A DNA stretch of 64,000 nt, taken from NCBI RefSeq assembly GCF_001445655.1, contig NZ_LNBE01000004.1:2108001-2172000 (forward strand), written 5' to 3'. This document shows, piece after piece, positions 23,487-27,601 of this stretch. The notes under the pieces were generated by a model, which saw nothing but the letters and a program-made list of their open reading frames with translations, made no database searches and was not told the origin of the DNA. The stretch comes from Streptomyces roseifaciens. GTDB taxonomy: Bacteria > Actinomycetota > Actinomycetes > Streptomycetales > Streptomycetaceae. The translations under genes were made by a program, and so were the position numbers. How positions within the stretch are numbered: the first letter of the stretch is position 1; every line of letters begins with the position of its first letter.

Positions 23487-23986
23487 GTGCGCGGGGCGGC
23501 TTCCCTGAGCCGCGTCGTCATCGACCGTTCCCAGCAGACCGAACTCGGCCAGGCGCTCATGGCCGAGCTGCACGTGACCTACAGCGACGACCTCGAAGCC
23601 TGACCAAGCCACCGACGCCGGCGGGAACGACGACGGGAGGTGTCGGGGGCGCAGGGGTGGGGGTTCGGGGCGCTGACGTGTATTTGTGGGCCCAATCTCC
23701 GGGCACGCACGACATCAGGGGGTCCGGGCCCGTAAATATACGGCCCCGGACCCCCTGATGTCGTGCGTGCCCGGAGATTGGGCCCACAAATACACGTCAG
23801 CGCCCCGAACCCCCACCCCTGCGCCCCCGACACCTCCCGTCGTCGTTCCCGCCGGCGTCGGTGGCTTGGTCAGGCTTCGAGGTCGTCGCTGTAGGTCACG
23901 TGCAGCTCGGCCATGAGCGCCTGGCCGAGTTCGGTCTGCTGGGAACGGTCGATGACGACGCGGCTCAGGGAAGCCGCCCCGCGCAC
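23487..23986. repeat. 500-bp near-perfect palindrome (arms 248 bp, loop 4 nt)
   Basis: Left arm 23487-23734 and right arm 23739-23986 are reverse complements with one mismatch by my reading (GGGCCC against GGCCCC close to the centre); loop AATA. The right arm holds the last 39 codons of the pentapeptide gene and its 3' flank; the left arm is an inverted copy of these, so a 36-residue C-terminal fragment of that protein is encoded again on the plus strand (to 23603). The outer left boundary falls in a GC-rich stretch (23400-23495) carrying repeated GGTGCGCGGGGCG, which also matches the right boundary. No transposase or target-site duplication seen. The rest of the 535-nt gap (23335-23486) holds only those GC-rich repeats. 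Confidence 0.97.
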
Positions 23987-24553
23987 GGCGGAGAGATCGT
24001 TGCCGCGAAGGTCGAGCCGCTGGTACCGGCCGGGGTTGAACTCGGTGTTCCGCAGAGTGCAGTCGCTGAGGACCGCGTCGCTCAGGTCGCAGTCGGTGAA
24101 TGTGGCTTCGGAGAGTGAGCAACGGGAGAAGACGGTCGGGCCGACGGCGCGGACCTTGGTGAAGGCGGTGAAATCGAGCTTGCAGGATTCGAACAGCACA
24201 TGGTCGAGGGTGAGGCCGTCGAGGGCCGCGCCCAAGAGCTTGCAATGGCGGAACACGACGCGGGTCAGCTTGCTCTCGGTCCATCGGGCCGAGCCCAGGT
24301 CGCAGGCGTCGATCTCGACCGAATGCAGGTTTACCCGTTCCAGCCGCAGGCGTGCCGTGTGCAGGTTTGTGATGCGGCCGGTGATGAGTTGCACGTCGGC
24401 GTGGTCGAGGTCGCGCAAGTCCGCGTCGGCGTAGTGGAAGTCCTGGACACTGCCGTGAGCCCTCTCCAGGGATTGAACGCGGTGCAGGTACAGGCCTGGC
24501 TCGGCGAGGTCGGGTACGACGATTCGGGCACGGCCGAAGAGGAGGTGGTCCAC
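23870..24553 (-). CDS. Pentapeptide-repeat protein in the RiPP operon
   Basis: 227 aa. From about residue 35 to 190 it shows five-residue periodicity with central Leu/Phe (ADADLRDLDHADVQL, CKLLGAALDGLTLDHVLF, DCDLSDAVLSDCTLRN), predicting a right-handed quadrilateral beta helix. Such proteins can mimic DNA and protect gyrase, or act as scaffolds. It lies 64 nt downstream of the precursor peptide gene on the same strand, so it belongs to that operon; self-protection or a maturation role are both possible. Its last 39 codons are duplicated in inverted orientation next door. Confidence 0.85.
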   Translation of the reverse strand: MDHLLFGRARIVVPDLAEPGLYLHRVQSLERAHGSVQDFHYADADLRDLDHADVQLITGRITNLHTARLRLERVNLHSVEIDACDLGSARWTESKLTRVVFRHCKLLGAALDGLTLDHVLFESCKLDFTAFTKVRAVGPTVFSRCSLSEATFTDCDLSDAVLSDCTLRNTEFNPGRYQRLDLRGNDLSAVRGAASLSRVVIDRSQQTELGQALMAELHVTYSDDLEA

Positions 24554-24617: not shown

Positions 24618-24797
24618 CTACTTGGTCTTCTTGTTCCAGTTATCCCAGGTGGTCCGGTTGTCGAACTGTGGTGTGATGTTGTCCCAGGTGGGTCGATTAT
24701 CGAATCCGCCCCCCGGGGCAGTCGGCGACAAGGCCATCAGTGTTTGCAGGGCGTCCTTCGAGGCACGTACGCGGTCAGTGGCAGTGGGCGTCGGCAT
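24618..24797 (-). CDS. amcA: RiPP precursor peptide with FDN/WDN cyclophane motifs
   Basis: 59 aa. Leader residues 1-30 contain an amphipathic helix (DALQTLMAL, 15-23) and end in Gly-Gly-Gly at 29-31. The core has aromatic-X-Asn motifs F32-D-N34, W38-D-N40, F45-D-N47, W51-D-N53 and then W54-N-K56. The block FDNR-x-T-WDN occurs twice with a 13-residue period. Aromatic-X-X motifs of this form are the substrates of three-residue cyclophane (triceptide) radical SAM enzymes. AAGGAG lies 9 nt before the ATG. The gene overlaps the end of the maturase gene by 23 nt. The name follows the 'multiple cyclophane-containing RiPP AmcA' family as remembered, and is tentative. Confidence 0.85.
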   Translation of the reverse strand: MPTPTATDRVRASKDALQTLMALSPTAPGGGFDNRPTWDNITPQFDNRTTWDNWNKKTK

Positions 24798-25914
24798 AGC
24801 GGGTGACTCCTTCGAATAGGGCGATCTTCGAGGCGGTGCAGTAACGGGTGCGGGTGCCGTCCAGTCGGCCGTCGTGCTCGAAGTACCGGTTCGCGGGATG
24901 GGCGCCGCCGCAGAAGTCGAAGTACGGGCATGTGGCCTTGCACGCGTCGACGCCGCGCCAGAACTCGGCGAGCCACGACGTGCGTGCGTCAGCCTCGGAC
25001 AGCAGCGTCTTGAGGTCGGTACGCAGGACGTTGCCGCTGGTGAAATCACCGAGCCGTGGATCGAGGAACCCGGTCAGCTCGGGGGATACGAGGACCACCC
25101 CACCGTCGTACGCGATCGTGGGAAGCGGGTCCCACGACCGGCCGCCCCGGGAGATTGCTCCCTGGTCGTTCAGCACGGCCCGGGCGAAGTCCAGGACCCG
25201 GCTGATCTCCCGCACTCGGACGGCGGGGTTGGTCTGCCACGCCGCGGTCAGCGCTTCCCAGAACTCGGCCGCCTGCTCCGTCTCATGGTGAGCGGTGTTC
25301 ACGCCCTCGTGTTCTTCGATGTTGACGCCGAGCGAGCGGCAGCCGAGGCCGGCGAAGAACGTATAGAAGTCCGCTGCCTGTGCAGGGTCGGGATCGGAGA
25401 CGACAGCGATCACATCGAACGGGATTTCGTGACGCCGAAGCCTTTCGATACCGCGCATGATCACCTGGAATGCCGGATGACCGGCACGGGTGATGCGGTG
25501 GGAGTTCATCTCCGCAGGACCGTCGATGCTGACCCCTACGCCGATGTCCTTCTCCAGAAGGAAGGCGCACCAGGCGTCGTCGAGGAGCGCGGCGTTCGTC
25601 TGCACGGTGTGCTTCACGCCGCGGAACGGGGCCATCAGGGCCGCCAGGTGCTCCCGGCCGGCGGAGAGCGGTTCGCCTCCGTGCCACACCACCTCGAATG
25701 ACGAATCTTCCTTCGCCCAGGCGTTGACCGACGTGGCGACCGCTGCGGCCACTGCCAGTGGCATGAGGTGCTTGGCCTTGCGGAAGGGCAGATAGCAGTA
25801 TGTGCAGTCCAGGGGGCGGCACAGTGTCGTCGGCTGCATGACGACAGCCTCTGGTACCGCGGCAAGGCGCCTCGTCGGTGCTGCCGGAGTGGGAGCGGAC
25901 ACGCGTATCACCAC
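24775..25914 (-). CDS. amcB: Radical SAM/SPASM cyclophane-forming peptide maturase
   Basis: 379 aa. The radical SAM cluster motif sits in TTLCRPLDCTYCYLP (Cys32, Cys37, Cys40), followed by VWHGGEPLSAG, VSIDGPAEMN and a C-terminal SPASM-type Cys set (Cys325, 329, 335, 359 in CKATCPYFDFCGG and RYCTASK). It should install C-C crosslinks between aromatic residues and the third residue of the motifs in the overlapping precursor. The first spacing is C-x4-C rather than the usual C-x3-C. Start uncertain: GTG at 25914, 25911 or 25902; the last has GGTGGTGA just upstream. The naming as AmcB is tentative. Confidence 0.85.
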   Translation of the reverse strand: MVIRVSAPTPAAPTRRLAAVPEAVVMQPTTLCRPLDCTYCYLPFRKAKHLMPLAVAAAVATSVNAWAKEDSSFEVVWHGGEPLSAGREHLAALMAPFRGVKHTVQTNAALLDDAWCAFLLEKDIGVGVSIDGPAEMNSHRITRAGHPAFQVIMRGIERLRRHEIPFDVIAVVSDPDPAQAADFYTFFAGLGCRSLGVNIEEHEGVNTAHHETEQAAEFWEALTAAWQTNPAVRVREISRVLDFARAVLNDQGAISRGGRSWDPLPTIAYDGGVVLVSPELTGFLDPRLGDFTSGNVLRTDLKTLLSEADARTSWLAEFWRGVDACKATCPYFDFCGGAHPANRYFEHDGRLDGTRTRYCTASKIALFEGVTRYADAHCH

Positions 25915-25997: not shown

Positions 25998-26849
25998 TCA
26001 TTCCAAGGCGTTGATCGCTGCGGCGATCAACGTGCGGGCTTCCTTGCCGTAGCAGGCGATCTGCGCGAGTTCGGAGAACATTTGTGCGTAGATGGCGACT
26101 TCGCTCGGTTGCTTCACGGTGACCTGGGCGGTGGCCAGCTCGATGATCACCTGGTCGTCATCGAAGATCCAGAAGCCTTCCAGTGGCCACATCGTGCGGT
26201 CGGCCGTCATGGGGACGATTCCGAGACTGACCTGTTGGAGCACGGATACGGTCAGTAGGTGGCCGAGCTGGCTGACCATGACCTCCGCGTCACCGAAGCG
26301 GGTTCGCAGTGCCGCTTCTTCCAGCAGGATGCCGAACTGCCGATTGGCCTGGCGCAGGACCCGCTGCCGCCCCATGCGGACAGCGACGGCGGCCTCGGTG
26401 TCGTCAGGGATGTCCCAGAAAGCAATGATGCGGCCCATGATCGACCGGGCGTAGGCCGGCGTTTGCAGCAGGCCGGGGATGACGCCCGGCTCGTAGATAC
26501 GGAAACGTCGGGTGCGCTCGTACAGCGGAACGTGCGCCTCTTGCACAGGGCGCAGCCCTTCACGCTGGAGGCGGCGCCACTCGACGTACATCTCCTCGAT
26601 GTTGTGGGCGGTGGCGAGGAGATCGGGGTACGTGTCGGTGGCCTGACACAGTTCGGCGTATCGCCACAGATCGTCATCGGACGGTTGCGTGATGCCGTTC
26701 TCGATGCGGGAGGCCTTGGACTCACTCCAGCCGGCACGGGCTGCGAAAGCCCGTGCCGTTTTGAAGCCGCCAGCTTTACGGATCTCCCGAAGCCGGCTGC
26801 CCAGAGCGACGCGGGCCTCCCGGACAGCGGAAGAGGGCGCTGATCTCAC
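25998..26849 (-). CDS. XRE-family regulator with DUF5753-type effector domain
   Basis: 283 aa. N-terminal helix-turn-helix (LGSRLREIRKAGGFKTARAFAARAGWSESKASRIENG) and the typical Streptomyces C-terminal region with PGLLQTPAYARSIM, LRTRFGDAEVMVSQLGHLL and a terminal FDDDQVIIELATA block. Such proteins usually pair with small DUF397 partners; here the neighbour is a DUF6879 gene 22 nt upstream. The GTG at 26849 was chosen because upstream sequence belongs to DUF6879. It lies 83 nt before the maturase gene in the same direction and is the natural candidate regulator of the RiPP genes. Confidence 0.85.
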   Translation of the reverse strand: MRSAPSSAVREARVALGSRLREIRKAGGFKTARAFAARAGWSESKASRIENGITQPSDDDLWRYAELCQATDTYPDLLATAHNIEEMYVEWRRLQREGLRPVQEAHVPLYERTRRFRIYEPGVIPGLLQTPAYARSIMGRIIAFWDIPDDTEAAVAVRMGRQRVLRQANRQFGILLEEAALRTRFGDAEVMVSQLGHLLTVSVLQQVSLGIVPMTADRTMWPLEGFWIFDDDQVIIELATAQVTVKQPSEVAIYAQMFSELAQIACYGKEARTLIAAAINALE

Positions 26850-26871
26850 AGGTCTGCTTCGTTGTCGTCGC

Positions 26872-27396
26872 TCAGGAGGGCCGGTATTCCGCGTGCGGGA
26901 CCGCCCGCTCCCAGACTGCCTCGAACGCACTCGTGCAAAGGCGGAGGACCCGCTCGTCCCGCGTGGGTTCCAGCCAGTCCGGCGCCGCCTCCCCGTCACC
27001 CGTGAAGTGCAGGACCACGACCAGCTGGTTGTCGAATACCCAGAAGTCGTTGCCCGGGAAAGGGATGTCGGTCGCCTGCCTGCGCGGCAGCCAGCGGATG
27101 TCCTCGCCCGCTTTCGCGTTGGCCTTCGAGACGTAGTGCTCGAAGCGGATGCAGTCCGACTCCGGTACGGAGAAAACCCGCGCCCGGCGGATGCCGACGC
27201 CGCGGCCGGTGGCAGCCCACACCGTCTCCAGCCACTGCTGGAATTCGACGTCGCCACCCACCGGATCGGTCAGGGTCCCGTTCTGCCAGGCGATGAAGGC
27301 GGGGTCGGACGGCATGTACGTGTCGCGCATCTCCAGATGCACCGCCGAGTGCTCGGCCGAGGCCAGAAGCTCCTCAATCGTCGGCACCCTTGCCAC
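26872..27396 (-). CDS. DUF6879 family protein
   Basis: 174 aa. Recognised by TIEELLASAEHSAVHLEMRD, a central GVGIRRARVFSVPESDCIRFEHY and the PGNDFWVFDNQLVVVLHFTGDGE segment usual in this Streptomyces family, which commonly accompanies XRE genes. Biochemical role unknown. A GTG at 27396 is preceded by GGAGG at 6 nt and overlaps the end of the 75-aa gene by 23 nt, implying coupled translation. The following XRE gene is 22 nt downstream. Confidence 0.82.
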   Translation of the reverse strand: MARVPTIEELLASAEHSAVHLEMRDTYMPSDPAFIAWQNGTLTDPVGGDVEFQQWLETVWAATGRGVGIRRARVFSVPESDCIRFEHYVSKANAKAGEDIRWLPRRQATDIPFPGNDFWVFDNQLVVVLHFTGDGEAAPDWLEPTRDERVLRLCTSAFEAVWERAVPHAEYRPS

Positions 27397-27601
27397 CCTG
27401 CACCTCCAGGAAGAACTGGACCATCCGCCGGGGAATCTCCACGACCGTCTCGTGCCTCGGAAGATCGAGCTGCGCCAGCCGCTCCATGTCGTCGACCTTC
27501 CACCCCTGGACAAGGTAGGTGTCCTTCTTCTCGTCCAGGTAAATCGTCGGTGATCCGCCCGACTTGCTCTCTGGATCCTTGCCAAGCCTGCGCAGAGCCA
27601 T
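27374..27601 (-). CDS. Small hypothetical protein coupled to DUF6879
   Basis: 75 aa, basic at the N-terminus and acidic at the C-terminus. Contains PTIYLDEKKDTYLVQGWKVDD, reminiscent of small proteins encoded next to DUF6879 genes. No catalytic motif. Start ATG at 27601 after GGAGGGA. It is the first gene of the leftward set 27601 to 23870 and has the CTTGC repeat motif about 70-90 nt upstream. Confidence 0.8.
   Translation of the reverse strand: MALRRLGKDPESKSGGSPTIYLDEKKDTYLVQGWKVDDMERLAQLDLPRHETVVEIPRRMVQFFLEVQGGKGADD

Follow-up and report, generated by a model that had tools for sequence, protein, structure and literature searches.

Triceptides are formed by radical SAM/SPASM enzymes, among them the 3-CyFE enzymes XncB, OscB and MscB, that are encoded beside precursors with aromatic-X-X motifs; in the products of OscB and XncB the bond runs from Trp or Phe to Asn (PMC11002830). 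The bioactivities of triceptides have not been elucidated, according to the accessible text of a 2025 paper (PMC12257519). Among pentapeptide-repeat proteins (PRPs), AlbG is titled in its structure entry a resistance factor for the topoisomerase poison albicidin. The microcin B17 operon codes for an immunity protein with high similarity to MfpA, and a PRP serves as the resistance gene in an operon for a gyrase-targeting peptide (PMC10886550 and PMC12406682); export genes are named in the microcin B17 operon (PMC10886550). HetL confers immunity to a pentapeptide derived from PatX, and its binding site on HetR is the PatS interface (PMC7476756). Here we describe a locus of Streptomyces roseifaciens, located in a 64,000-nt stretch of contig NZ_LNBE01000004.1 (assembly GCF_001445655.1, positions 2,108,001 to 2,172,000 of the forward strand; the window), where a triceptide-type maturase gene (amcB) and precursor gene (amcA) are followed by a PRP gene. 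Our leading proposal, which we judge an even call, is that a peptide with several cyclophane crosslinks is produced from this locus and that the locus also shields the producing cell against that peptide.

A sequence-only reading of the locus had proposed a profile search of maturase and precursor, and both proteins passed. AmcB (24775..25914, minus strand, 379 aa) scored 442.1 bits against NF041718 (cut-off 425, residues 17-372) and 47.7 bits against the radical SAM family PF04055 (cut-off 29.5), and the nearest proteins carry the NCBI name AmcB. AmcA (24618..24797, minus strand, 59 aa) scored 65.3 bits against NF041721 (AmcA type 1; cut-off 40), and its nearest relatives are likewise listed at NCBI under the family name. 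Since both are above the NCBIfam cut-offs, the pair belongs, by profile match, to a family that NCBI has already named, although the names and descriptions of the two models mention neither a PRP partner nor the fourth gene described below. The start of amcA lies 23 nt inside amcB, an overlap that the open reading frame coordinates confirmed, and its ATG is preceded at 9 nt by the Shine-Dalgarno sequence AAGGAG, itself within amcB (24807..24812, minus strand). Translation of amcA would probably be coupled to that of amcB through this overlap. The PRP gene (227 aa) starts 64 nt downstream of the amcA stop. The pentapeptide protein that had been read as part of the operon exists, but at 23870..24553 (minus strand), outside the interval 24618..25914 first given for the operon.

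The core region of AmcA (MPTPTATDRVRASKDALQTLMALSPTAPGGG-FDNRPTWDNITPQ-FDNRTTWDNWNKKTK; residues 32-59, 24621..24704, minus strand, from the precursor alignment) contains five aromatic-X-X triads, starting at F32, W38, F45, W51 and W54: FDN (F32-N34), WDN (W38-N40), FDN (F45-N47), WDN (W51-N53) and WNK (W54-K56). All of the up to five motifs claimed for the 59-aa peptide are thus present, in an aromatic-X-X precursor beside a radical SAM/SPASM maturase as in the XncB, OscB and MscB systems. None of 200,000 shuffles of AmcA held four [FW][DN]N triads, the frame was kept in 18 other proteins, and the second block (FDNR..WDNWN) was invariant in 19/19 aligned precursors; the shuffles and the conservation together rule out a chance repeat. 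The last triad ends in K, N or R across the aligned precursors, and a fifth ring is accordingly less certain than the first four. The regular 13-residue period predicted for the blocks was found in the window peptide but not in the family, where block spacing ranges from 12 to 16 residues and one locus (L092) has a single block.

On these grounds AmcB very probably forms cyclophanes on AmcA. We infer that, at the FDN and WDN triads and probably at WNK, it links the aromatic residue (F or W) to the beta-carbon of the third triad residue, giving four or five strained three-residue rings, and the Trp/Phe-to-Asn linkage made by OscB and XncB is what FDN and WDN would need. Each ring would correspond to a loss of 2.016 Da, by extension from the family and from the XncB/OscB/MscB chemistry described in PMC11002830; the calculated monoisotopic mass of AmcA with Met1 is 6630.256, against 6622.193 with four rings and 6620.178 with five. 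AmcB differs from the GrrM/OscB model, against which it scored only 223.7 bits (cut-off 310), and the crosslinks in AmcA are predicted ones. Leader removal and export would fall to proteins encoded elsewhere.

The comparison set numbered 55 distinct AmcB-like loci. Besides the window it took in 6 loci of named genomes (8 less the duplicates L007 = L073 and L012 = L076) and 48 that came out of two genome surveys, one of 394 genomes of the class and one of 392 of the genus. With 4-5 candidates scored per genome, the AmcB totals of 11/394 and 35/392 genomes are lower bounds. An FDN/WDN-type core adjoined the enzyme in 33 of the 55 loci, with L013, L088 and L101 retained among them despite a broken AmcB, and this recurrence, together with the two equivalog models, supports the cyclophane (triceptide) class originally assigned. 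The remaining 22 loci comprised 13 with AmcB above the cut-off (11 in one clade, two in another) and 9 below it. The expectation that relatives keeping the maturase would also keep the precursor frame therefore held in the window's clade (14/14 loci) but not for those 13. One of the non-FDN enzymes is a second AmcB of the same genome (G000 C1:75138-76211), 47% identical and above the cut-off. The peptide at L096 matched the NCBIfam family AmcA_3a (120.8 bits, cut-off 65), and five other non-FDN peptides had no match above cut-off among curated families. These sequences suggest that maturases for substrates of more than one class fall under the equivalog NF041718. The second AmcB (L069:6009-7302) overlaps an unrelated small open reading frame ending GGDYSYSGALHRTDLGPSGAPALT, and a PRP was not found nearby. 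Several unrelated small open reading frames, with endings LYSGG, PWEGP, IFGWAY, FHKF and FYNWNN, likewise overlap the AmcB-like genes of L058, L060, L064, L066-L068, L071, L072, L083, L084, L096 and L097. At two of the 33 loci, both of one family (L099:3951-5207 and L101:1694-2533), no stop codon separates the AmcB frame from an FDN/WDN core that follows it; these are apparent maturase-precursor fusions, with a frame error in draft contigs possible, and L101 has a broken or masked front part.

The PRP gene followed the core type. A PRP was present within 1.4 kb at 33/33 FDN-type loci versus 0/22 other AmcB-like loci (a weak PRP 5.4 kb from L087, a locus below the AmcB cut-off, was not counted). 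Because related loci are not independent, a fairer measure is the number of changes of the PRP label on the AmcB tree (53 rows, L013 and L101 being too short; the tree carries a long-branch warning): 3 changes were needed against a shuffled mean of 17.1, and 0/500 shuffles were as low. At six loci (L009, L010, L011, L013, L099 and L101) the PRP gene faces the precursor from the other strand, and the pairing there must have a cause other than co-transcription. The 392 genus genomes were also counted independently of AmcB, taking AmcA_1 above its cut-off and PRP matches at E <= 1e-40; this found AmcA_1 in 24 genomes, a PRP match in 31 (broken in G437 and G759) and both in 23. The one genome with AmcA_1 and no PRP match, G715, retains pieces of PRP and amcB, and eight genomes had a PRP match without AmcA_1. 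We found no report of PRP linkage to triceptide loci in the open-licence literature; the primary triceptide papers may mention neighbours.

We next considered how the partners are lost. A self-immunity gene should never be missing beside intact product genes, and 0/33 FDN-type loci lacked the PRP. Among the loci surveyed we saw none with intact amcB and an FDN precursor beside a broken PRP; broken PRPs were seen only where amcB is broken or gone. The reverse state was seen: at L088, L103 and L109 amcB is broken or gone, the precursor is left and the PRP is open (that of L109 matches only from residue 25), and seven genomes (G708, G585, G609, G541, G761, G453 and G654) hold a near-full-length PRP without above-cut-off AmcA_1 or AmcB. 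G507 has an intact locus plus two extra PRP copies, one of them N-terminally short. Upstream of the G761 PRP the last precursor codons persist (...NRPTWDNWNKK), making loss of amcAB with retention of the PRP directly visible there. On the PRP tree the 11 orphans, which include L103 and L109 with their precursors, need 9 changes, at least 6 of them forced by starred branches (shuffled mean 10). Ratios of nonsynonymous to synonymous substitution (dN/dS) were 0.33 and 0.72 in two orphan sister pairs, 0.25-0.51 in three other orphan pairs and 0.22-0.38 in six linked pairs. Such a pattern of loss is what a protection gene would show, being required as long as the product is made and dispensable afterwards.

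The same data bear on the alternative that the PRP is a scaffold or chaperone that binds the beta-strand-like FDN/WDN core while AmcB acts, and has no part in immunity. Strict linkage to the core type and a position directly after amcA would suit such a role. A scaffold would, however, be needless in the nine PRP copies (eight near full length) that lack an adjacent amcAB and occupy up to seven places on the PRP tree, several weakly supported, and the 22 other AmcB-like loci manage without a PRP. We regard the scaffold as unlikely. That the PRP is a cognate protection protein is, in our assessment, somewhat better supported than not.

The PRP scored 71.4 bits against PF13599. Of the 120 listed PRP homologues 40 were aligned. 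An AlphaFold2 model built from 40 sequences had a predicted local distance difference test (pLDDT) score of 92.8 and showed a full-length pentapeptide solenoid with a C-terminal helix (203-217), the architecture of gyrase-protecting PRPs. Foldseek placed EfsQnr first and AlbG fourth. In VIA-align the model scored 25.2 against EfsQnr (root-mean-square deviation 2.5 over 207 residues), 25.1 against a Clostridium botulinum PRP, 22.0 against AlbG, 20.4 against a designed solenoid, 19.8 against MfpA, 19.5 against QnrB1 and 19.2 against HetL. All 33 PRPs are acidic, with charges of -1 to -16 computed from the match start. The model thus resembles AlbG, the microcin B17 immunity protein and Qnr/MfpA in being an acidic solenoid with a C-terminal helix. 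Membership of the Qnr and MfpA families themselves was rejected, as the PRP reached 29.1 of 240 bits and 21.1 of 360 bits against the respective NCBIfam models, and gyrase binding by the PRP is argued by analogy.

The top NCBIfam row of the PRP was HetL, at 34.9 bits and far below its cut-off of 260. Together with the immunity to a PatX-derived pentapeptide that HetL provides, this raises the main functional rival: the peptide would be an endogenous signal, and the PRP would occupy its site on a regulator, such as a helix-turn-helix (HTH)/DUF5753 protein, making the producer deaf to it. No exporter or protease linked to the locus was seen, which would suit a signal of this kind. An HTH gene is, however, near only 6/33 FDN-type loci, and EfsQnr and AlbG outrank HetL in the fold comparison; we consider HetL-type signalling improbable, and slightly more so than the scaffold.

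We favour instead cognate self-protection by the PRP: in the producing cell this acidic solenoid, which resembles DNA and probably dimerises through the C-terminal helix, would shield the target of the finished peptide. The precedents of AlbG and the microcin B17 immunity protein point to DNA gyrase or topoisomerase IV as the likeliest target, which we suggest tentatively and with less than even confidence. The microcin B17 operon differs in having export genes; no exporter was seen among the genes that recur within 6.5 kb of FDN-type loci. If the proposal is true, triceptides gain a target and a resistance mechanism; a PRP that follows the core (33/33 versus 0/22) and has a gyrase-protector fold offers a first testable idea of triceptide function.

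Several points limit this proposal. Its weakest part is the link between the peptide and its target. EfsQnr and the C. botulinum protein stand out in the model comparison, yet the fold is common to all PRPs. Duplication or transfer of the PRP is possible behind the orphans other than G761, and seven loci (L113-L119) hold only broken PRPs. Decayed copies of this kind, and the fact that related genomes keep neighbours by descent alone, would also suit a PRP that is a passenger sharing the transcription unit by descent only. A passenger would hardly show 33/33 linkage over several families and two strand arrangements while being absent at AmcB loci with other precursors, and we find it barely plausible. 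As separate observations, a deletion at L117 (L117:5795-7046) joins the N-terminal part of AmcB (residues 17-83) to the C-terminal part of the PRP, and a database PRP of Streptomyces sp. 1331.2 (P0101) opens with MTFDNRPTWDSCSKKSK, which looks like the remnant of a degenerate AmcA core now translated as part of the PRP.

A fourth gene of about 238 aa directly follows the PRP in 21/33 FDN-type loci (19 full length, two partial), and every one of the 13 loci that share the window's clade has it. It was not seen in the remaining 12/33, the window among them, and none was found in the window or the whole S. roseifaciens genome by a search that matched in three control genomes. One member (L006:9063-9779) had no Pfam or NCBIfam family above cut-off. 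The family profile matched MicC (PDB 9vkm), an alpha-ketoglutarate-dependent non-haem iron oxygenase, with E 3.7e-12 over 112-222, a span that takes in HxD and the distal His, and these are kept in 28/32 rows. The fourth gene of the relatives is therefore oxygenase-like, similar in sequence to the 2-oxoglutarate oxygenase MicC; the assignment rests on this match, as a structure prediction from 4 sequences (pLDDT 42.7) was not used. Homologues also occur close to AmcB-like enzymes of other types, at six loci (L083, L084, L087, L089, L090 and L091), which makes it look like a general partner of such maturases. At L117 the fourth gene was matched over its whole length.

At the place of the relatives' fourth gene the window has a perfect 248-nt inverted repeat with a 4-nt spacer and a GC-rich hairpin centre (23487..23986), in which the final 38 codons of the PRP gene are present a second time. 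Either the DNA folded back and rearranged at a hairpin, or this palindrome arose as an artefact of assembly. It could mark a decaying copy of the locus, in which the oxygenase-like gene is gone and the final product is no longer made, a reading that the presence of the fourth gene throughout the rest of the clade and its genome-wide absence here would suit. Yet amcB, amcA and the PRP gene are all open and similar to those of relatives, the core retains all five triads, the palindrome could be artefactual, and the 12/33 FDN-type loci without the fourth gene imply that it is not essential to the family. We accordingly judge decay of the window copy very unlikely.

AmcB also departs from the canonical radical SAM spacing, CX3CX2C, by one residue: its motif is CX4CX2C (C32-RPLD-C37-TY-C40; 25795..25821, minus strand), and we base its radical SAM membership on the profile and the three cysteines, not on their spacing. 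Each of the 14 members of the window's clade, a group with 100/100 support on the AmcB tree, has CX4CX2C; of the other loci 40 have CX3CX2C and L101 is unreadable. The best 120 AmcB homologues comprise 63 with CX4CX2C, 52 with CX3CX2C and 5 that start inside or after the motif, and an extra codon in 14/55 loci and 63/120 homologues rules out a sequencing slip. The spacing is a point of difference from the named AmcA/AmcB system, yet many NCBI-named AmcB proteins share it. Three CX3CX2C proteins (P0201, P0205 and P0208) have 63-66% identity with AmcB and are thus no more distant from it than some proteins with CX4CX2C, so the trait may have been gained or lost on more than one occasion. No association with block spacing was seen by eye. 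Canonical spacing is usual but not obligatory: GenD1 of the gentamicin pathway is described with the same Cx4Cx2C (accessible text of PMC4340712), although it is a radical SAM methyltransferase and not a SPASM peptide maturase. LipA is assigned CX4CX2C in PMC8300815, on which we do not rely. We found no report of CX4CX2C in a peptide maturase in the open-licence literature, and as far as that literature shows, no description brings together the linkage of the PRP to the core, the clade with CX4CX2C and the loss of the oxygenase. The CX4CX2C clade and the CX3CX2C enzymes acting on the same substrate type form a natural pair for testing cluster-loop variability. The full composite, with topoisomerase-directed AmcA-type triceptides, a DNA-mimic PRP that guards gyrase and evolves with the core, a CX4CX2C maturase in one Streptomyces clade and a MicC-like finishing oxygenase lost here, is doubtful as a whole.

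No tRNA genes were found in the window, so a tRNA-linked insertion was rejected. A defence system was also rejected, as PADLOC gave only weak viperin rows (from the radical SAM domain) and HTH rows (from the regulator), and none for the PRP. The absence of an adjacent protease or exporter, noted from the window alone, extended to the relatives: none was seen among genes recurring in at least 4/33 FDN-type loci within 6.5 kb, where five representatives, one of them the fourth gene, were compared with Pfam (a NUDIX protein, HTH proteins, one weak match and one without a match) and the remainder were judged by eye. Upstream of amcB and in the same direction lie a gene for an HTH/DUF5753 regulator (25998..26849, minus strand) and one for the DUF6879 protein that accompanies it (26872..27390, minus strand). 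This pair is optional, since it recurs near only the same 6/33 FDN-type loci. A 75-aa gene is also located upstream with the pair (window 25998-27601).
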